Source: Candidatus Peribacterales bacterium
GTDB lineage: Bacteria; Patescibacteriota; Gracilibacteria; Peribacterales; Peribacteraceae
DNA length: 64,000 nt
Direction: 5' to 3'
Assembly (NCBI GenBank): GCA_020058765.1
Contig: JAGVDM010000001.1
Location: forward strand, 1-64,000
Shown: in pieces, positions 22,750 through 36,276 of the stretch
How the letters are laid out: the number at the start of each line of letters is the position of its first letter
How positions within the stretch are numbered: position 1 is the stretch's first letter
Made by a program: the position numbers and the translations under genes
Notes under the pieces: generated by a model
Databases searched by the model: none
Told to the model about the DNA's origin: nothing
What the model saw: the letters and a program-made list of their open reading frames with translations, nothing else

Positions 22750-23604
22750 TTAGAACGGCAAGTCTTCTACCTTCACTTCGGATTCGTACTGCACTGCGGG
22801 CATTGCCGCACCTACCGGTGCAGGCTGCGCAGAGGATGGCGCCGTATCTCGTCGCACCACAGGCGCACCAGAAGCATTGATCGAGTCGGCAACGGACGGA
22901 TTGGCCGTGCCGAGGAGTGTGCACTGCTCTGCAATCACCTCTGTGGTGTAGCGCTTACTGCCGCTCTGTGTTTCCCAACTGCGCGTTTGTACGCGACCAG
23001 TAACGTACACGCGAGAACCCTTTTTCATCTGCTTACTGACTTGCTCGGCAAGTGCGCCCCAAATGACGACATTGTGGAACTCGCTGCGCTCTTTGTCTTC
23101 GCCTGTACTACGATCCTTCCAGCGATCATTGGTTGCCACACCGATCGTCACCACCTGCTGGCCGCTCGTTGTGGTGCGTACTTCTGGGTCACGTGTAACG
23201 TTCCCAACAATCTCTGCACGGTTCACACCGTCAAGAAGTGCCGAGCCCTCCGGAGCCGGGAGCTGGCCATCTTTAGGATCAAGCATAATCATATCGAGAC
23301 CGACGATCTTGGTTTTGGAGCGCTTCTCTTTACTCTGTTCGTCTTCCCAGCTGTCTGTTTGCAAGCGACCGCCAATGAACAATTGAGAACCGGGGCGAAC
23401 ATACTGCCCAGCAATATCTGCCATGGCACCCCAAAGGGTAACCGTATGAAAACTTTTGCCAGTGAGCCGTTCGCCGGACTCCGACTGGAATGCATAGGGC
23501 ACGACCAAGTTCAGGTCAGTCACGCTTGTGCCGCCGGGAGTCTGTCTGATCTCCACGGGCTGTGTTTGATAACCGATGATGTGTACGCGATTGTAGGAAT
23601 ACAT
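22750..23604 (-). CDS. ssb: Single-stranded DNA-binding protein with two OB folds
   Basis: The 284-aa protein contains two SSB-type OB folds in tandem. OB1 is residues 1-112 (YNRVHIIGYQTQPVEIRQTP and SFHTVTLWGAMADIAGQYVR). OB2 is about 125-230 (NRAEIVGNVTRDPEVRTTTS and EFHNVVIWGALAEQVSKQMK). A flexible tail follows that ends VKVEDLPF, like the partner-binding tip DDDIPF. Most bacterial SSBs have one OB fold and form tetramers; the two-fold form is known in Deinococcus-Thermus. The frame opens far upstream, but the ATG at 23604 gives the normal N-terminus; TTTCCCC lies 9 nt before it. Confidence 0.93.
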   Translation of the reverse strand: MYSYNRVHIIGYQTQPVEIRQTPGGTSVTDLNLVVPYAFQSESGERLTGKSFHTVTLWGAMADIAGQYVRPGSQLFIGGRLQTDSWEDEQSKEKRSKTKIVGLDMIMLDPKDGQLPAPEGSALLDGVNRAEIVGNVTRDPEVRTTTSGQQVVTIGVATNDRWKDRSTGEDKERSEFHNVVIWGALAEQVSKQMKKGSRVYVTGRVQTRSWETQSGSKRYTTEVIAEQCTLLGTANPSVADSINASGAPVVRRDTAPSSAQPAPVGAAMPAVQYESEVKVEDLPF

Positions 23605-23668
23605 GCCACAAAAGGGGAAATGGAAGTAGAGGATGCCTCTGGCACCGATCCTATAAAAAGAACGGATC

Positions 23669-23684
23669 GTGTACAACCGTACAC
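23669..23684. repeat. Inverted repeat between ssb and the secreted-protein operon
   Basis: GTGTACAACCGTACAC is a perfect 6-bp inverted repeat with a 4-nt centre in the 223-bp divergent spacer. It could be an operator or a small hairpin. Nothing else is recognised in the spacer apart from promoter-like sequences. Confidence 0.35.
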
Positions 23685-23813
23685 CTCTTGCTACATAGAA
23701 ATCCAGCGACTCAGATTGCAGCCGAGAAAATCTATGGTCTGCAAAAACGGTGATCGTAATTCTTCGGGCGAACTCGTCAAGCGGGTCGACCGGATGAAGC
23801 GCGTCCGCTCCAG

Positions 23814-23819
23814 TACTAT
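23814..23819 (+). promoter_or_regulatory. -10 box TACTAT for the five-gene secreted operon
   Basis: TACTAT lies 8 nt before ATG 23828; an overlapping TATATC lies 5 nt before it. It predicts a near-leaderless transcript for the whole operon. Confidence 0.4.
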
Positions 23820-23827
23820 ATCTTCCG

Positions 23828-26800
23828 ATGTACTGCGCACGCTCGCGGCTTCGGGTGCACCCTCTTCTCATGATGGGTGCGGGGCTCCTACTTGGTGGGG
23901 TATTTGCAGGCAGTGCGAATGCCGCGTTATTTCGCATAACGCCATTCCCTCCCACGAGCCCCACAGGAGTGCAAACCATGACCAATAATGTGGAGCAATA
24001 CATTGATGATGCGCAGTGTGGTGGCTGGAATTACGAAGAATCTGCCGCAGGGAAGATTGCAACAGTAACCGGACTGCCCGGGAGAACAGGCGATCCGTTC
24101 GCAGTTGTGGAATTGGGTATGGCTCTGCGCGATGAGCGCGGGGAGCTGCTCGATGACGGGTTCCAGTTCCCCGATACATCTGACGTGTGGGGTTGGACAT
24201 CCGCATGTGCACCGGGAAGCCCTCCGTACTACCAAGACACCGCGGCAAAAACTCCGTGCAAGAATTCTGGAGAATGCGAACAATTGTGCGCTCGCATTAA
24301 CCGATGGCAACAACCTCGATGGCTCTGCACGGTCTACCACACGGATGACGAGGGAAATGTGGTACCGCGGTTTTCGACACTGCGTGGAGACTGTCGTGAG
24401 CATAAGGGGAACAACCCGAGGAACGAACCGGCAAGACCGGCTGCGGCCCGTGGCTGTGACGAGGTGCAGTTCCTAGGCTGGTACTACTGTTGTACAAGCC
24501 AAAAAGTGACATACATGTTCTACGAACAGTGTAAGGAAGGAAGCTCTGCAGCATGCCTGTCGCACCCAGATCATCTGCGCAACTGTATTCGCTGCGAGGG
24601 TGATGGAGCGAACACTGGGAAGGCTGGCGTCCCTACCGATAACAACGGGGAGAAAATCCAGCGCGGAGCGGGGGCATTGTTCAACGAAACGGGGTGCCGC
24701 GTGGGGCGATCAGAAACACAAATGCCACTCCCCGATCCAGACATTCAGGATGTTGCCGGTCGCAAGCAGATTCTTGCGCGCCGCTATCGATCGTTCTTCC
24801 GAAAATATGTGGGCGCGTCATTCACGCGTGATGCGGTACAACCGGAGGTTCCGCGAGATAACAACTCCGAAAACAATCTGCCTGTCCTGTGCTTCGGGCG
24901 ATACGCTGAGTTCGACCCCAAGCTCACTCGAGTGAACAACAAGGCACACAACTGTGTGCTGTATATCCGCAACCATACGCAAATATGGATCAACAACATG
25001 GAAAGGTCTCAAAAAGGAAAAGGTGACCTCGCAGACGCACTCAATCTGCCCGATCCGCCCTACCCCAAAAAGCAGGAAGAGGGGGAGCAGACGTTCTGGC
25101 GCAACAATCGCATTGGCGGAGGTGACGATGAAACCAATTTCCTGGAAATGGCGATCAAGTACCAGCGTGTAAACCCACAGCTGAAAGTGAAGCAGATTCG
25201 TTCCAGCGGTTCGTTGATCCGCGCATTCGACGAAACGGTCGCAACCGACCCAATTGATCCTGCGAATATTAACAATCTGAAGCGCACGCTCGTGGAATGG
25301 TGGCAGGGCTTACAAACAGAGGGGAACAAATTGTTCAATGAACCCACAATACGCGTGGTAATCCCCCCAGCATGGTCGCTCGACTTAGACCCAACACACC
25401 CCATTCTTTCGCCTGTGCCTCCAGAGGAAGAGGCAGCACAGTGGGACACCGATCCGTTGCAACAGCCAATAGAAGTGCAGGTAGAGCTGCGGGATGATTT
25501 GCTGGGAGATGTGGCAGACTTCTTAGAAAGCTCGCTGCTGCTGCAGGTGCAGCAAGAACGTGTACCGATTGCCGTGCCTATGGGCTCTTCCACCGAGCTG
25601 CGCATTGCGCGGGAAGGGTGGTGCAAATGGCATCGGTACCAAAACCCCGATGAATCGTGCGATGACGCCAGCGGCGACATGGGCGATCTACTCGATCGAT
25701 TGGAAGAATACGCAGACCGCATCGACGAATACCGCAAACTGCGCGCGGAGCTTTCTACCTACCTTGCAAAGTACTTAGAAATGCACAACACCATTAACCG
25801 TAACGTTGGTGAGTGGGTGCTCGATAATGCACGAGTCATTCAGGAACACCGCGAAGCGCGTGATGCACTGGCTCCGCTCAAGAATGAATGGATGGCCATT
25901 CAGCAGGTGTACCGTCGCTTCCACGATGACGGCAATTTCCCTTGGTGCCGCAATGACCGTTTCACCACCCCAATCTATTCCCTCCTTGATCCATGGATGC
26001 CCGGGCGACCGGATCTACGGGATCAGCAACAGCTGCTACCGACCTTTGAAATCCCACGCGCACCAGATCTACTATTCGATATGACACGGCTTACTGTTTC
26101 AACGGGATCAATCAAAATCCCCGTATTGGAACCGATCCAAGTGACAGTGGATGTCACGAGTTTGCGTGCGCCATTGGACTACAACAAAGACGCGAAGATT
26201 CCGAAGATTCCGCCACTCCCTCCTATTCCTACCATCAGTGCGAATATTGATGATCGTATCCCGGAAGTGAATGTGGGGCAGGACTTACCACCTATTGTGG
26301 AGAATCCTCGTCCGCCCGAGGTGAACCCAGAAGAAATTCTGCAAAAAATGCGCACCGTCCGCCAGATCATCACGAGAATGGACCAAGAATACCGGCTGTT
26401 CTGGGGTACGCTGAACCGTGTGAATGATCCGTCAGATCTGGATTGCTCACGCCCCAATTCCGGACGATGCAGACATGTAGAAATGGATCTGGTGGAACGC
26501 TTCACTCGCATCGGCGCACGGCCAGCAGTGTTACTGAAAGAAGATTTCCTCTCGGTCAAAGGCCCCTATCAGTTCTCCAATGGCCCACGGTTCCGCGAAC
26601 CTGCTCGGTACGATGGGTACGATTCCTGCCCAAAGGAAGACTGGGCGTGCTACCTCATGAATCCGCAATTGGATAAAGGCCGTGCTGGTTGGCATATTCA
26701 ACATCCAACGCCAGAGGAGCAGGAAGAGTTCATTAGTGAAATCCGCAAGGAAGCAATTGAGTCGTCGCTATTCAAAGGAATCAATCTGCAAGTGCCGCCT

Positions 26801-26875
26801 GCAAAGATTCTGCCGTCGTTCAATAAACCAGCGGACATTCAGCTCTACCCAATTGAAGACGAAGACGAACAATGA
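23828..26875 (+). CDS. Large secreted cysteine-rich protein of unknown function (operon gene 1)
   Basis: The 1015-aa protein has a signal peptide (residues 1-32, LLMMGAGLLLGGVFAGSANA). I do not recognise a family. The mature N-terminal third is rich in cysteines (about 17 up to residue 380), including PCKNSGECEQLCARINRWQ, GWYYCCTSQK and RNCIRCEGD, suggesting a disulfide-stabilised outer domain. The middle (about 620-700) is helical (DLLDRLEEYADRIDEYRKLR). A Pro/Ile-rich linker KIPKIPPLPPIPTIS follows near residue 790, and a last Cys-containing helical domain follows that. It is the first of five genes that each overlap the next by 4 bp. Confidence 0.75.
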   Translation: MYCARSRLRVHPLLMMGAGLLLGGVFAGSANAALFRITPFPPTSPTGVQTMTNNVEQYIDDAQCGGWNYEESAAGKIATVTGLPGRTGDPFAVVELGMALRDERGELLDDGFQFPDTSDVWGWTSACAPGSPPYYQDTAAKTPCKNSGECEQLCARINRWQQPRWLCTVYHTDDEGNVVPRFSTLRGDCREHKGNNPRNEPARPAAARGCDEVQFLGWYYCCTSQKVTYMFYEQCKEGSSAACLSHPDHLRNCIRCEGDGANTGKAGVPTDNNGEKIQRGAGALFNETGCRVGRSETQMPLPDPDIQDVAGRKQILARRYRSFFRKYVGASFTRDAVQPEVPRDNNSENNLPVLCFGRYAEFDPKLTRVNNKAHNCVLYIRNHTQIWINNMERSQKGKGDLADALNLPDPPYPKKQEEGEQTFWRNNRIGGGDDETNFLEMAIKYQRVNPQLKVKQIRSSGSLIRAFDETVATDPIDPANINNLKRTLVEWWQGLQTEGNKLFNEPTIRVVIPPAWSLDLDPTHPILSPVPPEEEAAQWDTDPLQQPIEVQVELRDDLLGDVADFLESSLLLQVQQERVPIAVPMGSSTELRIAREGWCKWHRYQNPDESCDDASGDMGDLLDRLEEYADRIDEYRKLRAELSTYLAKYLEMHNTINRNVGEWVLDNARVIQEHREARDALAPLKNEWMAIQQVYRRFHDDGNFPWCRNDRFTTPIYSLLDPWMPGRPDLRDQQQLLPTFEIPRAPDLLFDMTRLTVSTGSIKIPVLEPIQVTVDVTSLRAPLDYNKDAKIPKIPPLPPIPTISANIDDRIPEVNVGQDLPPIVENPRPPEVNPEEILQKMRTVRQIITRMDQEYRLFWGTLNRVNDPSDLDCSRPNSGRCRHVEMDLVERFTRIGARPAVLLKEDFLSVKGPYQFSNGPRFREPARYDGYDSCPKEDWACYLMNPQLDKGRAGWHIQHPTPEEQEEFISEIRKEAIESSLFKGINLQVPPAKILPSFNKPADIQLYPIEDEDEQ

Positions 26876-27837
26876 AGCTCTATCGCATTCTCGCCATCGG
26901 CCTCGGCATCGCTCTCGTAGCGCCCATATCGCTAGTGTCTGCACAGGGTGATGAAAACTCCTGCGTAGAAGCAATCAACACTTCACTCGCCCGTGAACAG
27001 CGCATGTACCGCGGGGTATTGTTTGGCGAACCGTCAGTAGAGGATGCGCCAGTCGGGAACGTGAAGTTCGATGGATCCGGAAAACCGTGGATACGCATTA
27101 AGCCCATCCCACCGGGGGAAGATGAGGCAGAAGATAGCTGGGCGTCCGTATCCGGCGAAGGGGAAGACTCCAAAACCATGCAGGAGGCGGCGGATGACTT
27201 TGGACTGAGTGTGGAAGCTGCGAGCAGTGCCCCCGATGGCACAGCGCGCGCAGATGAAGACAATGAAATATGGGTAAAAGTCGGCGGTTCCTGGAAAGAA
27301 GCACTCGATTTGAAAGACGATGATGAAATATACGGTGATGTGCCTACGGGCGATGGCATCTTCGGCACGCGCCGCATCATGACATCGGAGCTTGTGCCGT
27401 ATCTCACGCAAACCATGCGTGCACTCCAGTGCAAAACCGCTGCATTGTGCCAGCAGGTGGAATTGTCGTTCAGCGGGGGTTCGGCGCAAGACGGCCCCGC
27501 CGGCTGCATGCAAATGGGTGGCACCATTTCTGCATGCGACTTTACAGACAACACCAGTGGGCAGCCTGACGTGAGTAAGTTGCGTTCCTACTGTGAACGC
27601 ACGAGCAAAGAACTGCTTGAACGCGAAGCCGAGCTCCTCAAACTCGCAGTGGAATACGACGCCGCATACCGCAGTATTCTGCAATTTGCCGGCAACTTCG
27701 ATCTTGCCTTACACGAGTTCCGCTGGCCGCTCACGTTCAGCCTTCGGCAATCAACTGGCGTCATCGCCGAGCTTGGGCGCATCCCGTGCTTCCTTGGGAG
27801 CTGTGATGCTTATCCTGATACTCCTGAATTCCGGTGA
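26872..27837 (+). CDS. Secreted protein of unknown function (operon gene 2)
   Basis: The 321-aa protein has a clear signal peptide (MKLYRILAIGLGIALVAPIS, cleavage near VSA-QG). An acidic central region (residues 80-160, rich in D, E and S) may be disordered. The C-terminal half holds nine or so cysteines, with the pattern CKTAALCQQVELSF, GCMQMGGTISACDF and IPCFLGSCDAYPD, plus a helix LLEREAELLKLAVEYDAAYR. Its ATG overlaps the upstream stop by 4 bp, so translation is probably coupled; no Shine-Dalgarno is seen. Family unknown. Confidence 0.72.
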   Translation: MKLYRILAIGLGIALVAPISLVSAQGDENSCVEAINTSLAREQRMYRGVLFGEPSVEDAPVGNVKFDGSGKPWIRIKPIPPGEDEAEDSWASVSGEGEDSKTMQEAADDFGLSVEAASSAPDGTARADEDNEIWVKVGGSWKEALDLKDDDEIYGDVPTGDGIFGTRRIMTSELVPYLTQTMRALQCKTAALCQQVELSFSGGSAQDGPAGCMQMGGTISACDFTDNTSGQPDVSKLRSYCERTSKELLEREAELLKLAVEYDAAYRSILQFAGNFDLALHEFRWPLTFSLRQSTGVIAELGRIPCFLGSCDAYPDTPEFR

Positions 27838-28661
27838 TGCAAAAAACGCCCTCGCGCACATCGGCGAAAAAAGAGCTGCTCTTTGCGGGCATTGCCCTAT
27901 GCGCATTAGCAGGTTTTGCTTTTTGGAAAGGGGACAACCTGCGACTTGCCGGCCAAACGGTTGTTGGCGGTGTTGGTGGACCCAATATGCCAATACTAGG
28001 TGCATGCACCGGCCGTGAGGAGGAAGATCTCTACGAGATCACACGCGAAGATTTGCAGTTCCCGGGTCCGCCCGATGTGATCGACATGTGGACCGAGCGC
28101 TACCACAAGCGTGTGGAGCAAATTGTGGATGAGTATTTGGCGAATATGCAGTTTGAAATTGACTGCCTCAATTCGAATGTGGATCAATTGGTGCCACCCG
28201 GAGCCCAAATGCTCGCTCTTGCTGCGCAGCTACCACCCTGGGAAAACGGCGGAGGTGCGGACTTATCGTACGTGGATACGCCTACCGTACTCCTAGAATT
28301 TCTACGCACGTACGAATGTGCACTCACTGAGAGGTACTTCTTCTCCTTTGGCGATGTGACGAAGGAACTCAAGGAAATTATGGCACGCAACGATGCAGAG
28401 TTGTTATGGGGAGAAGTGATTGAAGAGTACGTCGAACAAGCTCGAAAAATCGGGCACGAAATGTCTATCGCTCGCCCGGCAATGAATCGTGTGCTCACAG
28501 TCACGAGCGGTCGGGGAAGGCTGAAAAACTTGGACATTGAGGCGGAGTGTTTCTACCGAGCAACAATGGATTTGCGAAATGCGATGTCCCTTGCTGCAGA
28601 GGCCTCTGCCTGCTTCCCACGTGTACAGGATACGAAAGACCCTCTTCGCGATTACGAATGA
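27834..28661 (+). CDS. Membrane-anchored extracellular helical protein (operon gene 3)
   Basis: The 275-aa protein has a basic N-terminus and a hydrophobic segment (LLFAGIALCALAGFAFW, residues 15-31) acting as signal anchor or uncleaved signal. The rest is predicted extracellular and mostly helical, with five scattered cysteines (LGACTG, EIDCLNS, TYECALTER, EAECFYR, SACFPR). The start is GTG at 27834 or the adjacent ATG at 27837; it overlaps the previous stop either way. Unknown family; cotranscription with its neighbours is inferred from the overlaps. Confidence 0.7.
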   Translation: MMQKTPSRTSAKKELLFAGIALCALAGFAFWKGDNLRLAGQTVVGGVGGPNMPILGACTGREEEDLYEITREDLQFPGPPDVIDMWTERYHKRVEQIVDEYLANMQFEIDCLNSNVDQLVPPGAQMLALAAQLPPWENGGGADLSYVDTPTVLLEFLRTYECALTERYFFSFGDVTKELKEIMARNDAELLWGEVIEEYVEQARKIGHEMSIARPAMNRVLTVTSGRGRLKNLDIEAECFYRATMDLRNAMSLAAEASACFPRVQDTKDPLRDYE

Positions 28662-31054
28662 TGCGGAGAACCCTCGTCCTCATTGGCGGACTCTGCGTGC
28701 TGCTCCCTGCGGCAACGTTGGCAGCGGAAGAAGCGCCCATAACGGGGCTCTATCCAACGGTGCTGCAAATGACGCGGCAGGAAAATAACCAATCATCAGC
28801 GGAGCTCGCACTAAAAATGGGCATACCGCAAATACTCGCTGGAAAAACGGCATTCCCGATCACGGCGCAACACGTTGAGGCAGCAATCACCAATAAGTTC
28901 TCTACGCTCTGCAGTAATGGTGAATTGAAAGACGTGACGTTCACGGAATGCATGGAAGTGGCAGCACAAATCGTGGAAGTGGCACAAAGAGAATCATGGA
29001 TTCGCGCGCTGGGGCGGGACTTGATGATGATTGCGACAAGTTACGAACCAGAAGCCGATGGCCACACCGGCAGAAAGCATGAGCTATCTGTAAAGCTGCC
29101 CGCTGCAATGTACTGGTGGCAATCCGGATCCGACAGGGCAACAAACCCCGCAATGAGCACAAAAATACGGTTAATGACCGTGGACGACGACGAATTCGAA
29201 GAGCATGCCGACGACATCAGCGGGATCCTCAGTGACTTTAGTTTTGATAGTATAGTGACGTTATTGCAACGCTATAAACACGGATATGCGGTGGTGCAGG
29301 GGAAAGACAATCGCGGCGATTGCGATGAAGATGAGGATGAGGGTGGAGGCGGCGGAGAATTGGGCGAGCTCACCATACGCAGCTGCGAATTGGAGGTGGC
29401 GCTACACAAGACATGGGAAGATTTACCACACGATGAACTACAAAACGTTCAGGAAGGTGAGCTCGTCGTGTTCCCTGTTTTTGACCTCACGGTACCAGGT
29501 TTTTCGAATGTCGTACTGTGGTTGCGAGCGGATGACGTGGGGCTGCTCTGGGGATTGCCTGTGCAGCCCGTACTCCCCGATATCACTGTACCGGGTGGCA
29601 GTTACATTGGCGGACCCGGGGCACCGGGGTTGGATGAAGGTATTTGTTCACATGCATTCGGCAAGCGCGGTTACTTGTGCAGGCCGCAAGAATTGGAGGA
29701 CTGCCCTATTGATCTGGAACCTCTTGAGCCTGAGCAAGGCGAAGAAGAGCCTGTGGGCGGCACCATCGAATTGCATGCGTGTGTGCCGCATAAGTTTGAA
29801 ACACGCAAAATAGAATCCGGATCGAACTCGTGCCAGGTAGGCGGATGGCGGATCCCTACGGAACCAAGCATCATGCTGCAGGAAGATACACCGACCAAAG
29901 ACAATAAATTGCAGGCAGAGTTGTGCGAGAACTGCAAAGTAGATCTGTACTGCCAAGGTGACTGCGATGGCGCATTGGGAATGACCTACAATAAAAACGA
30001 AAAGGGGGTTATTCCTATTTGTTTGAAACAACAGCAGGAAGTGGCTCCATACGAATACATCGTGCTACACGAACTGGTACATGCGCAGCAGAAGTGCAAT
30101 CTTCCTATTGAAGGAACCTTGGATAGTGACACGCAGGCAGGCTGCTGTACTGCGGAGTACTACCCGAATGTGGTCATGTGCAAGGCAATGATGGAAGACG
30201 GACTAGTCGACGTGAAGAAATTCACTCTAGAGGAGTGCGCCATGATGCTTTCAAACGAGAGTTGTGCGACGTGGGAATATGCATGCACGGGGGAACCGCC
30301 CGATATTGACTCCTACAACGAACGAAAGGAACTGCTCTGGGAATCATTTAAGCCCCCGCCTCCACAGGGGCAAGAGTGTCAGAACGCTATCCGCCAAATG
30401 AGTGAACGGGCACTTTCCATCAAAGAATCCTTAAAACTGAGCTGCACTCCTGGATGCGAAGCGCAGTACGAAAATACGATTGGGAATAACCTCTGCTACA
30501 TCAGCCAGTGCGTAGAGGAATCGCTCGAGGCACATCGCCTCATTCCGGGGCGCATTCCATACGTCACGCAGGATGAGGCATATCCATGGGATTCCTGCAT
30601 GAAGGATCGCTCGGAGTTGCCGGATCTGGTGGCAATACCGCCACTTACCCGTACGTTCCTGCCGCAGTACCGTGGCCGTGATTTGGTGGAACAAATGGAT
30701 ATGCTGCTCTGCCAAGTCAGCGGACTCCCCAAGCTCTCGCCACCGATCCTTTGCACCTTCCATCCCAATCGTAGAACAAACCAGCCACTTCGGGATTACG
30801 CAGACACATTCTCAAGCTTACTGAGCCTGAACGAAGAGAGTGCCATGCGTGCGCAAGATCTGCAGGGCAGTGCACAGAATATCGGCACACGTATGGGAAC
30901 CATGATGTACCAAAACTATCTGCATAAAGCGTTGCGGGAATTCGCAGACCTCGTGCGCGCCGCAAACGGCTTGATCTATGCTGTAGGCGATACACAAATC
31001 CCTTCTGTTGCCTGCCCGCGCAATTACACCGGCGGCTGCGGCATTTTCCAATGA
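28658..31054 (+). CDS. Secreted cysteine-rich protein with HELVH zinc-protease motif (operon gene 4)
   Basis: The 798-aa protein begins with a signal peptide (MMRRTLVLIGGLCVLLPAAT, cleavage near LAA-EE). About 30 cysteines lie in the mature part. At residues 467-477 is IVLHELVHAQQ, the HExxH signature of zinc metallopeptidases, embedded in a Cys-rich region; a third zinc ligand is not obvious, though glutamates in AEYYP and WEYACTGE are candidates. An acidic low-complexity patch (CDEDEDEGGGGGELGE) lies near residue 225. The frame opens at 28547; the ATG at 28658 is chosen for the signal peptide and 4-bp overlap. Family otherwise unknown. Confidence 0.72.
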   Translation: MMRRTLVLIGGLCVLLPAATLAAEEAPITGLYPTVLQMTRQENNQSSAELALKMGIPQILAGKTAFPITAQHVEAAITNKFSTLCSNGELKDVTFTECMEVAAQIVEVAQRESWIRALGRDLMMIATSYEPEADGHTGRKHELSVKLPAAMYWWQSGSDRATNPAMSTKIRLMTVDDDEFEEHADDISGILSDFSFDSIVTLLQRYKHGYAVVQGKDNRGDCDEDEDEGGGGGELGELTIRSCELEVALHKTWEDLPHDELQNVQEGELVVFPVFDLTVPGFSNVVLWLRADDVGLLWGLPVQPVLPDITVPGGSYIGGPGAPGLDEGICSHAFGKRGYLCRPQELEDCPIDLEPLEPEQGEEEPVGGTIELHACVPHKFETRKIESGSNSCQVGGWRIPTEPSIMLQEDTPTKDNKLQAELCENCKVDLYCQGDCDGALGMTYNKNEKGVIPICLKQQQEVAPYEYIVLHELVHAQQKCNLPIEGTLDSDTQAGCCTAEYYPNVVMCKAMMEDGLVDVKKFTLEECAMMLSNESCATWEYACTGEPPDIDSYNERKELLWESFKPPPPQGQECQNAIRQMSERALSIKESLKLSCTPGCEAQYENTIGNNLCYISQCVEESLEAHRLIPGRIPYVTQDEAYPWDSCMKDRSELPDLVAIPPLTRTFLPQYRGRDLVEQMDMLLCQVSGLPKLSPPILCTFHPNRRTNQPLRDYADTFSSLLSLNEESAMRAQDLQGSAQNIGTRMGTMMYQNYLHKALREFADLVRAANGLIYAVGDTQIPSVACPRNYTGGCGIFQ

Positions 31055-32496
31055 AACTACTTCATGTGTTCCCTCTCGGCATTCTTGCAACTGCACTGTC
31101 TGTGCAGAGTGCAATTGCTGCATGCCCCCCAGGAGACACCGGAGATATTTTGGATCTTGACCCGATTTCGAGCCACTATACGGCAAAGGTGTTGGAGCGT
31201 GCCGAGGCGGGCATCACTAAGGCTGAATCGTTTGACCCTATCGATCTGGATTTGGAGTTTCTCTATTTCGACTGGCTCGACGAAATCACAGCATTCATCG
31301 GCGAACTACTCGATACCGATTTGCGGCTGGCGCAGGAGCAACTCGATCTACGGCAGCACACAGCCTGCCTCTATATTGATTTGGAAATCATTGAAGCAAC
31401 CATGGCCAAAGTGCAGTGCATGATGAGTGAGGAAACACTTACGGAAGACGAAGTGAATCCCGGAAAGATTTTCTATCTGCACACAGTGTTGATGTTCTTA
31501 AACGAACGGTACCGCAACCTGGCCGCAGGGGGCACGGATCCGAAGTACCGAGATAATGGTTGGACGGTGCCACAAATCTTCGACGCAACGGACTACAGCA
31601 AAGAAGATCCTCTATGCCCATTCCACAGCAACTACTTGCCACCCACCATCCATGGCTACGGCTGCGACACAGAAGTGATGGGACAATATTCACTCACGCC
31701 AGTTGATGAGGAAAATGACGCACTGGAAGACCTAATTGAGGAGCGAAATGAGTTCATTGAAGACTCGCAAGATCTTGATGATCTCATCCTCCGGTTAAAC
31801 TGGTTCACTGGCCAAGCGCCTCCAGATCTCAGCAATTTTGGCGCAGGTCTTGATCGTGAGCATGAAGAGTTCTCTGGGTGCTTGGAAGAGGACGACGAGA
31901 GTATCTTCGCACGAGGCGGCACGCAGGTGGAGCTGCGAGGGCCGTTCTCTTTTGAGAAAGACGAACCCAAAATTGTTCGTGAATTTTTGGAACAACGATC
32001 GCTCTGGGGCGCAAGCAGACCGCAATCTGAAGAATTAAAATTTCCTACGGAAATAGAAGATGACGATGAGCGTGAGGCCGCAGAAGAGCGCGAGTTCAGC
32101 CTATCGATACTTGATAAGCTAGTACGCAACGTCGCGCGCTTATTCATTCACTATTGGAATATTGAACAGAGCCGGCGAGAGGCGGGCATCATCGCCAAGT
32201 CCTCCGACCCATACCTGCAGACGCAAAAAGAGCTGCAGGGACTGCGTACGCAGGTGAAGTGGCTCGCAGAGCTCGCAAGTGTAAAGGAGACGGGTGGCCG
32301 CCTATTTACAGCCAAATTGGGCACGTTTCTCCGCGCTTCGTGTATTTATCGCCCCTGCAACCAACAGCTGGAAAATGTGCTTAAAGTGACGCTCACGGAT
32401 AACTGCTTCCCGTTTGTGAGTGGAGAGCATGCACGAATGACCGAGGCAGATGAGGATCCAGATGCCCGATGCGTGGAGTCCGCACGTTTGCAATAA
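31051..32496 (+). CDS. Secreted helical cysteine-containing protein (operon gene 5)
   Basis: The 481-aa protein has a signal peptide (MKLLHVFPLGILATALSVQS, cleavage near AIA-ACP). The mature part is acidic and mainly helical: residues 65-130 (FLYFDWLDEITAFIGELLD, and LYIDLEIIEATMAKVQCMM) look like a long helical hairpin joined by cysteines. A charged region (EDDDEREAAEEREFSLS) sits near 335. The C-terminal part has paired cysteines in ASCIYRPCNQQ. Overlaps gene 4 by 4 bp. No recognised family. It is followed after 42 bp by dnaE, which has its own promoter. Confidence 0.7.
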   Translation: MKLLHVFPLGILATALSVQSAIAACPPGDTGDILDLDPISSHYTAKVLERAEAGITKAESFDPIDLDLEFLYFDWLDEITAFIGELLDTDLRLAQEQLDLRQHTACLYIDLEIIEATMAKVQCMMSEETLTEDEVNPGKIFYLHTVLMFLNERYRNLAAGGTDPKYRDNGWTVPQIFDATDYSKEDPLCPFHSNYLPPTIHGYGCDTEVMGQYSLTPVDEENDALEDLIEERNEFIEDSQDLDDLILRLNWFTGQAPPDLSNFGAGLDREHEEFSGCLEEDDESIFARGGTQVELRGPFSFEKDEPKIVREFLEQRSLWGASRPQSEELKFPTEIEDDDEREAAEEREFSLSILDKLVRNVARLFIHYWNIEQSRREAGIIAKSSDPYLQTQKELQGLRTQVKWLAELASVKETGGRLFTAKLGTFLRASCIYRPCNQQLENVLKVTLTDNCFPFVSGEHARMTEADEDPDARCVESARLQ

Positions 32497-32538: not shown

Positions 32539-35500
32539 ATGCGCCCAGAGGATTTCGTTCACCTGCATTGTCATTCCACGTACTCGCTACTGGAGGCGCT
32601 GCCGAGCCCAGAGGAGATCGTTGAGCGAGCAAAGGAATTGGGACAATCCGCAGTGGGCTTGGCAGATAAGGGATACACCTACGGCCTTACGGAGTTCTAC
32701 AAGGCAGCCAAGTCTCACAAGCTCAAGCCGATTCTTGGGCTAGAGACATACGTTGCTGCACGCACCCGATTCGACAAAGAGAGCGGCACCGACACGCGTC
32801 GGTATCCGCTCGTGCTCCTGGCAGAAACACAGGAGGGCTACGAAAACCTGCTGGAGTTGGCTACACATGCTGCACTCGAAGGCATGTACTACAAACCTCG
32901 TGTGGATGCGGAATTACTCCAGAAGTACGGGAAAGGACTCATTGCGCTCTCTGGGCCTATAAGCGGTGCATTGCCTCAGGCAGCACTCGCAGAAGATGAA
33001 GACCGCATACGGGAGCTAGTAGGCCAATACCGAGAATTTTTTGGTGATGAAAACGTATATTTCGAACTCATGGATTTGCCGTCTGTCACCGGACAGGCAG
33101 AAGTGAATCAACAACTGATTCATTGGGGAAAGGAACTCAATGTGCCACTGGTGGCGACATGCAATTCGCATTACTGCAGGCAAGACGATGCAGAGGCACA
33201 CGACGTGCTGCTGTGCATCCAGAAAAATGCGCGGATTGATGATCCAAGCCGGTTTTCCATGCGCGACAGTGATTTTTCCATGCGGCCGTACAGCGAGGTG
33301 GAGAAGGCATTCGCTCATGTGCCCGAAGCATTGGAGAACACAAAGTTGATCGCTGATCGGTGCAATGTGCGGCTCGATTTTTCCACGTATCACATCCCTC
33401 GCTTCCCTGTACCCACGAAGCAAAATGAAGCTGCGTATCTGCGCACGGTATGCGAGGAAGGGTTTGCGAAGCGCTATGCGAACCCCACAGACGAACACCG
33501 CGAACGCCTAAATTACGAGCTGGGTGTGATTGAGCAATTGGGGTTCCCAGGATACTTCTTGATCGTGTGGGATTTTGTACGAGAGGCGAAGAGTCGCGGC
33601 ATTACGGTGGGCCCAGGTCGCGGATCTGCTGCAGGTTCCATCGTGTCCTATTGTTTAAACATCACGACATTGGACCCCATTGAGCATGGACTACTGTTCG
33701 AGCGCTTCCTGAACCCAGCACGTGTAACGATGCCAGATATCGATATCGACTTTGCAGACAACCGCCGTGACGAAGTGCTCAACTATGTTCGTGATAAATA
33801 CGGGAAAGACCGAGTAGTGCAGATCTGCACATTCGGAACACTGGCGGCGCGTGCCGCAGTGAAGGACGTTGGCCGTGCGTACGGTGTGCCATTCCTCGAA
33901 ATGAACGCGCTTGCGAAACTGATCCCAGAACGACCCGGTACCACACTCGACGAAGCGCTGGCGACTCAAGAGCTGAAGCTCGCCTACGAAAGCAATGACA
34001 CGTACCGCAAAATCATCGATGCGGCATTAAAGCTGGAGGGAAAGGCACGCCACGTATCGGTGCATGCCTGTGGTGTGATCATTACGGAAGGGCCCACGGT
34101 GAAGTACACCGCCATTCAGCGTGCTCCAAAAGATGAAGACACCATCATCACGCAATCGTCCGCAAAGCCGCTGGAGGCTCTTGGATTGCTAAAAATGGAC
34201 TTCCTAGGACTCATGAACCTTACGGTGATTCAAACAACGCTCGAGATCATCGAGCGCACGGAGGGTGAGAAAATTGATATTACGGCAATACCGCTCAACG
34301 ACGCAGCGACGTACACGCTACTGCAGCATGGCGACACCACCGGTGTGTTCCAGCTGGAATCCGGCGGTATGCGCCGGTACTTAAAGCAACTCAAGCCGAC
34401 TGAGTTCAACGACATCGTAGCAATGGTGTCACTCTATCGCCCTGGTCCAATGGAATGGATCCCGAGCTATATCAAGCGCAAGCATGGCAAGGAGGTGGTG
34501 AAGTACAGCCACGACGATCTGAAGCCCATCTTGGAACCAACGTACGGTATCGGTATTTATCAGGAACAGATCCTGCAAATCGCACAAGTGTTCGCGGGAT
34601 TTTCTCTTGGAGAAGCTGACTTGTTGCGCCGTGCGATCGGAAAGAAGATTAAAGAAGAGCTGGACGCACAGCGCGAAAAATTCATCGAGGGTGCAACGAA
34701 AAAAGGGTACGACAGCGCACTCGCTGAAGAGATTTTCGACGATGTTATTACGCCGTTCGCCGGATACGGTTTCAACAAGTCTCACGCTGCGGGCTATGCG
34801 CGCGTCGCCTACGAAACTGCATACCTGAAAACGCGGTACCCCACAGAGTTCATGGCCGCGCTATTGAGTGCAGATGCACAACGCACGGATCGTGTGATGA
34901 TTGAGATTGAAGAGTGCCGCACGATGGGGCTAGAAGTGCTGCCTCCGGATATCAACGAATCGTTGCGCCACTTTACAGCGCTGCCACAGCGTACGGACGA
35001 GGCAGGCAACCTCCGCCCAGGCATTCGCTTCGGCCTCACTGCGATCAAAGGCATTGGTGACAGCTCTGTGATGGAGATCATCGCTGTACGCGAAGAAGGT
35101 GGAAAATTCACCAGCATCGAAGACTTCGCGCAGCGTATCCCGAAGAAAATTCTCAATAAGAAACTGCTGGAATCCCTTGGGAAATCTGGCGCACTCGACT
35201 CGCTCCTTGAGCGAGGGCTCGTTGTGCAGCATTACGAAAAAATCGTGGAATACGGCAAATCAGGGCAGGACATTGGCGCAGGGCAAACCGACCTGTTCGC
35301 AAATCTTTCGGCCGATACGGGCGCTGCGGCAATCGAGTTTCCCGCGGCCCCGCCCGCCACGCATTTGGAAAAGCTGAATTGGGAAAAAGAGACCATGGGT
35401 CTCTACGTTTCTAGTCACCCACTCGCCGGCTTAAAAAAGTACATCGGCAAAAAAGCGCACCTCATCGCCAACTTGGAACCCAAGCAGGTGAAAAAGAAAG

Positions 35501-36276
35501 TGACGGTCGCCGGCATCGTGGAATCGATCAAGAAGATCAACACGAAGAAGGGGGAAACCATGGCGATCGTGATGCTGGAGGACCCAACAGGCAAACTGGA
35601 GGTGACGCTCTTCCCACGAACACTCGCAGAGGCTGCTGGCTTCTTAGAAGATCCAGATTCTGTGCTGGTAGTAGGAGGAACCCTGGATGAGCGCGGCGGC
35701 CAATTGCAGGTACGAGCAGACGCCGTAAAGCGAGCATCACTGAGTACCATGATTCAGAAGGCCAAAGACGCGGGAATGTACGACGAAGAGGCGGCGAAAA
35801 CCGGCATCATGCCTGTACGACAGCACGCAGTAGATGATGAGGTCGAAATGTTGGATGAGGAGGGAAACGTTGTGGCTGGCGTCACATTGAAAGTAGTAGA
35901 AGAAAGCGCAGTAACCGATGATTTCCTAGGGCCAATCGGCCGGTGGATTACGCAAGGTATGGATATGCAATCCGCTATGCGGCAGTTGGGGATTTTGGAG
36001 GGGGCAAAAGCGACGGACGAGCCCGCCACGGTAGAAGATGATCTGCCCGCTGGGCCCAAGATTTCCATTCATACGATCACGCTCCCCACACACGCGCCAA
36101 AAAAACTGCTGCTCGACCTCAAAGAGGTGCTGCAAGCATTCCCCGGGAAGGAGAAGGTACAATTGAAAATCGGACCGCAGCAGATCCCTCTGCCCATCAC
36201 GATCAACATGTCCACAATCCTCGAAAAGAAGGTGGCAGATCTGCTCTCTGCGTACGAAGCTCAAGCATTGCGCTGA
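32539..36276 (+). CDS. dnaE: DNA polymerase III alpha subunit
   Basis: The 1245-aa replicative polymerase has an N-terminal PHP domain (VHLHCHSTYSLLEALPSPEE), the palm with VGPGRGSAAGSIVSYCL and the catalytic PDIDIDFADNRRDEVLNYV, the fingers region with SLYRPGPMEWIPSYIKRKHG and FAGYGFNKSHAAGYARVAYE, a helix-hairpin-helix region (RFGLTAIKGIGDSS), an OB fold (VTVAGIVESIKKINTKKGET) and a C-terminal extension. The PHP motif reads ADKGYTYG where active domains have DHGN, so PHP proofreading may be lost. tsaC starts 4 bp after it. Confidence 0.97.
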   Translation: MRPEDFVHLHCHSTYSLLEALPSPEEIVERAKELGQSAVGLADKGYTYGLTEFYKAAKSHKLKPILGLETYVAARTRFDKESGTDTRRYPLVLLAETQEGYENLLELATHAALEGMYYKPRVDAELLQKYGKGLIALSGPISGALPQAALAEDEDRIRELVGQYREFFGDENVYFELMDLPSVTGQAEVNQQLIHWGKELNVPLVATCNSHYCRQDDAEAHDVLLCIQKNARIDDPSRFSMRDSDFSMRPYSEVEKAFAHVPEALENTKLIADRCNVRLDFSTYHIPRFPVPTKQNEAAYLRTVCEEGFAKRYANPTDEHRERLNYELGVIEQLGFPGYFLIVWDFVREAKSRGITVGPGRGSAAGSIVSYCLNITTLDPIEHGLLFERFLNPARVTMPDIDIDFADNRRDEVLNYVRDKYGKDRVVQICTFGTLAARAAVKDVGRAYGVPFLEMNALAKLIPERPGTTLDEALATQELKLAYESNDTYRKIIDAALKLEGKARHVSVHACGVIITEGPTVKYTAIQRAPKDEDTIITQSSAKPLEALGLLKMDFLGLMNLTVIQTTLEIIERTEGEKIDITAIPLNDAATYTLLQHGDTTGVFQLESGGMRRYLKQLKPTEFNDIVAMVSLYRPGPMEWIPSYIKRKHGKEVVKYSHDDLKPILEPTYGIGIYQEQILQIAQVFAGFSLGEADLLRRAIGKKIKEELDAQREKFIEGATKKGYDSALAEEIFDDVITPFAGYGFNKSHAAGYARVAYETAYLKTRYPTEFMAALLSADAQRTDRVMIEIEECRTMGLEVLPPDINESLRHFTALPQRTDEAGNLRPGIRFGLTAIKGIGDSSVMEIIAVREEGGKFTSIEDFAQRIPKKILNKKLLESLGKSGALDSLLERGLVVQHYEKIVEYGKSGQDIGAGQTDLFANLSADTGAAAIEFPAAPPATHLEKLNWEKETMGLYVSSHPLAGLKKYIGKKAHLIANLEPKQVKKKVTVAGIVESIKKINTKKGETMAIVMLEDPTGKLEVTLFPRTLAEAAGFLEDPDSVLVVGGTLDERGGQLQVRADAVKRASLSTMIQKAKDAGMYDEEAAKTGIMPVRQHAVDDEVEMLDEEGNVVAGVTLKVVEESAVTDDFLGPIGRWITQGMDMQSAMRQLGILEGAKATDEPATVEDDLPAGPKISIHTITLPTHAPKKLLLDLKEVLQAFPGKEKVQLKIGPQQIPLPITINMSTILEKKVADLLSAYEAQALR

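Follow-up and report, generated by a model that had tools for sequence, protein, structure and literature searches.

A putative zinc-metallopeptidase module in an exported cysteine-rich protein of a five-gene operon from Candidatus Peribacterales

Bacteria of the candidate phyla are regarded as living on other cells or at their expense, and to our knowledge very few surface enzymes have been described from them. One protein encoded in a 64,000-nucleotide stretch of a Candidatus Peribacterales contig (the window) carries the peptide IVLHELVHAQQ. A preliminary description, made from the letters of the DNA, took this peptide for the HExxH helix of a zinc protease in an exported protein full of cysteines, and drew from it an enzymatic role for the surrounding operon. 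Here we ask whether the motif belongs to a real metallopeptidase domain, and what such a domain would do in this operon.

The protein is the product of gene 4 (28658..31054, forward strand, ATG at 28658 and stop codon ending at 31054) and has 798 amino acids. Its N-terminus, MMRRTLVLIGGLCVLLPAATLA, was judged by eye to be a Sec-type signal sequence and 32 of the 798 residues are cysteines, in agreement with the exported, Cys-rich protein described earlier. IVLHELVHAQQ is in frame in gene 4. Its eleven codons occupy 30059..30091 on the forward strand, where the first His codon is found at 30068-30070 and HELVH (residues 471-475) at 30068-30082. The peptide had been read correctly in the preliminary description, but the coordinates given for it, 30058-30090, lie one base to the left, and their translation is not the motif. 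From its composition, the gene 4 protein would be expected to contain 0.025 HExxH motifs. The bare motif also occurs in three other open frames of the window, so on its own it proves little, and these three frames are what speaks for a chance motif in a long protein.

Two checks had been named in the preliminary description, conservation of HExxH among homologues and a third zinc ligand near the two histidines. The full HExxH is found in 39 of 46 related domains (34 in gene 4, four in gene 1 of the same operon and one in an orphan protein). Position by position, H471 is found in 42 of the 46 modules, E472 in 40, H475 in 40 and Q478 in 41; H471, E472 and H475 rank with the best conserved positions other than Cys, and the remaining near-invariant positions are for the most part Cys and Gly. 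Downstream lies a motif CCxxE, here CCTAE (residues 496-500, 30143..30157, forward strand), where both C496 and C497 are kept in 46/46 modules and E500 in 45/46. This glutamate, encoded at 30155-30157 and positioned 25 residues after the second His of HExxH, is the candidate third zinc ligand.

The whole module covers about 190 amino acids (approximately residues 393-587, 29834..30418, forward strand), with boundaries set by gene 4 proteins that do not carry it, and stands between conserved N- and C-terminal parts. It comprises three strands, the active-site helix, the CCxxE helix, a Cys framework and C-terminal helices. Folded alone with AF2 from 46 sequences, the module reached a pLDDT of 89.9 and a pTM of 0.87. 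The model of the whole gene 4 protein had a mean of 76.1 and a pTM of 0.66, with block means of 84-96 over residues 411-560. In the model the strands are 427-433, 441-443 and 451-457, HELVH lies on the active-site helix 465-480, and C496-C497-x-x-E500 lies on the consecutive helix 493-513, followed by further helices. That HELVH sits in a real zinc-metallopeptidase domain is supported by the aligned sequences and by the model, where the two His and the Glu are found on two consecutive helices predicted with confidence, and the zinc-protease identity proposed earlier is supported. HExxH stands above chance here because it is conserved in 39 of the 46 domains, the Glu is conserved in 45 of them, and the fold is predicted, with high confidence, to be zincin-like. 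Against this conservation, the third-ligand candidate, the fold and the small expected number, a chance motif is extremely improbable, and we consider it ruled out by conservation and model.

Which fold family the module resembles was examined by structure and by sequence. Foldseek searches gave no solved structure reaching an E-value of 1e-3. VIA-align gave as best rows for the module the HExxH oxygenase domain of ChlB (8s5f_F, Z 4.9, the top row), IrrE (3dti, 4.5), Dcp (4.4) and SPRTN (6mdw, 4.2), all with Z below 5, where the tool warns that a score may mean only a common arrangement. Judged by their titles and by what is known of these proteins, 48 of the 50 VIA-align matches listed are HExxH metal proteins. 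These rows support a zincin-type fold for the model and name no family. The top row is also what suggests an HExxH enzyme with zinc or iron but without peptidase function, but its score is tied with those of the peptidases or peptidase-like proteins that follow (IrrE, Dcp and SPRTN), and an exported, Cys-framed setting would fit a secreted peptidase better; we regard a non-peptidase enzyme as improbable.

Pfam gives no significant match for any of the five operon proteins, the only trace being Peptidase_M76 (PF09768, Atp23) at an E-value of 0.045 over the gene 4 motif region. The M76 score is 14 bits for gene 4 and 17.4 for the module alone, with a cut-off of 25.2, and none of 30 genomes had this family above the gathering cut-off. 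For 8 of 35 members, M76 is the Pfam family that the module matches best (lowest E-value 2.7e-5), and no M76 structure is named among the VIA-align or Foldseek matches listed. Membership in the M76/Atp23 family was rejected, as the resemblance is present but below the Pfam cut-off. Both Atp23 and the module have a HELxHA helix and then a Cys-x-x-Glu segment. In contrast to Atp23, a protease of the mitochondrial intermembrane space according to passages of PMC5665977, the module is bacterial, exported and placed inside a large Cys-rich protein.

SprT/SPRTN and IrrE/ImmA are absent among the Pfam matches of the 35 members at E-values up to 10. These zincins are cytosolic or nuclear and are not known to have the Cys framework of the module, which has no significant sequence or Foldseek match to them. 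The model of the module has a small layout of three strands, an active-site helix and a Glu helix, like theirs and that of the mini-Glu-zincins; the mini-zincin concept is presented in PMC3890501. DUF6782 (PF20573, a putative metallopeptidase) weakly matched 4 of the 35 members (best E-value 6e-4) and left the module of the window unmatched at E-values up to 10. Searching PDB sequences using the module profile gave no match at E-values up to 10. Among anti-phage defence and phage families, PADLOC profiles matched 0/5 operon proteins at an E-value of 0.1, and PHROGs gave for the five only one family of unknown function, with gene 5 (E-value 0.071).

The operon (23828-32496) consists of five genes on the forward strand: gene 1 (23828..26875, an exported 1015-residue protein which carries the module in four related genomes), gene 2 (26872..27837, exported, 321 residues), gene 3 (27834..28661, 275 residues with an N-terminal hydrophobic segment), gene 4, and gene 5 (31051..32496, exported, 481 residues). 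Neighbouring genes overlap by 4 bases at all four junctions (26872-26875, 27834-27837, 28658-28661 and 31051-31054), which points to one co-translated operon. According to Pfam, murB and the divergent ssb (22750..24003, reverse strand, SSB 8e-59, with its true start lying downstream of that of the mechanically called ORF) lie on one side, and dnaE (32539..36276, forward strand, DNA_pol3_alpha 2e-98) on the other. The gene order is kept across the family, and in most relatives the block lies between ssb and dnaE. The host genome is 1.17 Mb in size, and VKOR, as disulphide machinery of its own, was not found in it at an E-value of 0.01.

Searching with gene 4 gave matches in 48 of 96 genomes, counting that of the window. 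All 48 belong to family f1; none was found in 39 genomes from other families of the class. The module profile matched 46 of 74 genomes of the family, with one copy in the genome of the window, so that all 46 modules fall within one Candidatus Peribacteraceae-type family. In 379 genomes of the phylum the same profile found 11 genomes of family f1 and three weak matches (E-values 9e-4 to 5e-3). The latter were rejected by eye as separate small HExxH proteins, two of ImmA/IrrE type and one of YgjP type.

Sixty loci were read. The module is present in 46 and absent from 12 with a readable gene 4; the remaining two (L077 and L078), where the contig ends inside gene 4, were counted neither with nor without it. 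Twelve module-less gene 4 proteins, including those of the four genomes with the module in gene 1, were aligned to five with the module. Absence shows as one clean gap, with the preceding segment ending near Cys392 and the conserved C-terminal part following. The module in gene 1 follows directly on a conserved CGGW in three genomes (G025, G049 and G046), whose genus mates have no module there, and is found at a different site, further on, in G038. A single clade of the four gene 1 modules was not rejected (p 0.459, on a short module alignment), and in the dnaE tree G038 is far from G025 and G046, while G049 is not represented in it. These sequences could be read as a single move combined with transfer; the two insertion sites speak for two events. 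A further copy (G005) is found in an orphan exported-looking protein of 1069 residues with DUF4215 repeats, with no gene 4 relative in the fetched stretch.

Outside the family the operon is recognised by gene 2, whose profile reached 13 genomes there when 192 genomes of the class were searched. In all eight of the 13 loci that were read (L164-L171) three genes for exported-looking proteins come after a gene 2 relative, and in seven of the eight a very long gene 1-like protein (2187 to 3216 residues, open at the edge of the stretch) lies upstream. The fourth and fifth genes of these loci match genes 4 and 5 weakly but co-linearly in a profile comparison (probability 53 and 75, with 2.3 for a mismatched control and 20 for genes 4 when a smaller gene 4 alignment was used). 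HExxH was found in the called proteins of none of the eight loci, the fourth gene included. The operon predates the module or at least extends further, and the module was probably added in the family of the window or lost outside it.

The motif is also lost within the family. HExxH is broken in 7 of the 46 modules, all seven in gene 4, and E500 is kept in six of these. On the operon-gene tree (40 rows, leaving out L035, L066, L077 and L078) at least six changes are needed for the loss, and the Cys framework is kept throughout. The broken modules read as having a non-catalytic job, or as decaying, in those lineages. Repeated loss of HExxH, with C496, C497 and nearly every E500 preserved, could also be taken to mean that the whole family is a zincin-derived binding or scaffold domain in which catalysis is incidental or dying out. 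We hold this to be unlikely: the motif is intact in the large majority of copies, all four gene 1 copies and the orphan among them, H471, E472 and H475 are highly conserved, and loss in a minority is more like an enzyme in decay than like a family without enzymes.

Because 12 operons are free of the module, 7 of 46 modules are without HExxH and the fourth gene of the sister families has none at 8/8 loci read, these comparisons place the putative protease as an accessory and not as the core function of the operon. The enzymatic role proposed for the operon earlier is therefore retained as far as the zinc-protease identity goes and given up as a core function.

The same comparisons bear on the main rival explanation, in which the module is a maturation or assembly peptidase that cuts a partner protein of a five-protein assembly and also helps to assemble it, as Atp23 does for Atp6. 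The module always stands in the operon's own proteins except in G005, its move from gene 4 to gene 1 stays within the operon, and a weak M76/Atp23 resemblance is seen. According to passages of PMC5665977 the interaction of Atp23 with Atp6 is essential and the processing of Atp6 is not, a precedent that would make loss of HExxH tolerable while the fold is kept. Against it stand the 12 operons that have a gene 4 but no module at all, three of them in genera whose other member carries it in gene 1, the lack of HExxH in the fourth gene at all eight sister-family loci read, and the orphan copy, found without a gene 4 relative. We give this explanation a limited chance, and think it somewhat unlikely.

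The reading which we favour, at about even chances, is that of an accessory ectopeptidase of the Glu-zincin type, which a surface assembly would display and whose targets would lie outside that assembly. The five exported proteins would probably form one such assembly, and a disulphide-framed module inserted in one of them would be held on the outside of the cell. His471, His475 and Glu500 would hold the zinc and Glu472 would be the general base. The bond cut would be a peptide bond in a protein outside the assembly, on the surface of a neighbouring or host cell or in a nutrient protein. We favour this ectopeptidase because the operon persists without the module, because the module has changed place, between two subunits and also to a surface protein unrelated to them, and because it turns over fast. 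A further reason is that the lineage is described, in the Results and Discussion of PMC4736985, as reliant on external protein and rich in exported Cys-rich proteins. That section infers a life on externally derived protein for the lineage and describes, for Ca. Peribacter riflensis, large exported Cys-rich proteins (like gene 4 in lineage, export and Cys content), a 14-gene Cys-rich cluster and Myxococcus-type repeats; it mentions neither the present operon nor any metallopeptidase within such proteins. A literature search on metallopeptidases and surface proteins of Peribacteria, Peregrinibacteria and candidate phyla (titles and starts of abstracts of open-licence PMC papers) gave no description of the module or the operon.

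Turnover was measured on close pairs of genomes, using dN/dS on 10 pairs and a test for excess silent change on seven (five of those 10 and two more). In the pair G002 and G040, fourfold sites differ at 37/71 positions in the module and at 64/403 in the rest of gene 4 (p = 2.8e-10), i.e. three times as often in the module. NG86 dS is 2.07 for the module and 0.24 and 0.32 for the flanking parts, and a second stretch of gene 4 (windows from codons 241 and 271) shows a lesser rise. As silent sites should not respond to selection on the protein, the simplest interpretation is that a diverged copy took the place of the module, and a swap of this kind is likely. The silent excess is clear in one of the seven pairs and marginal in L116 and L118 (p = 0.047), and the p-values of the other five range from 0.1 to 0.84. 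Four of the five, all of genus g28, have far diverged silent sites, and only amino-acid identity is lower in the module (0.43 to 0.45 vs 0.66 to 0.80 elsewhere). L056 and L057 show no difference for the module (0.90 vs 0.89 identity). In the pair G012 and G043, selection is strongly purifying in all parts of gene 4, the module included (dN/dS 0.05).

More tentatively, and with less than even confidence, the five-gene surface assembly of the class Peribacteria may be ancient and carry a hypervariable, exchangeable ectoprotease cassette. Such a cassette would be replaced by recombination, would hop from one to the other of two subunits and to unrelated surface proteins, and would be disarmed time and again, as a part that faces outward should be under pressure from changing hosts or prey. 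A compact, portable putative zinc peptidase, encoded within a conserved operon for exported proteins, offers a concrete and expressible candidate for extracellular protein cutting by this lineage. The natural catalytic losses, the module-free sister operons and the relocations between gene 1 and gene 4 are ready comparisons for the function of the module, in an operon which looks wider than the family and uncharacterised.

The C-terminal part of gene 4 (residues 595-788, 30440-31021), with NTIGNNxCYIGQC, is strongly conserved and belongs to no known family. The whole of gene 4 gave no matches in a search of genome contigs and the C-terminal part gave 28 loci, mostly in MAGs named Candidatus Peribacteraceae, Peribacteria or Peregrinibacteria; no relative of it was found in viral contigs. 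One locus (L139, JAIPIN010000018.1) has the C-terminal part at 45% identity on a contig labelled Kiritimatiellales, where the label or the binning is probably wrong. In G039 (L047:8508-16376) gene 4 is replaced by a giant protein of 2623 residues, left out of the gene 4 alignment, which consists mostly of CGDG...GEECDDGN repeats (Myxococcus/DUF4215-like, by eye) and keeps only the C-terminal part of gene 4.
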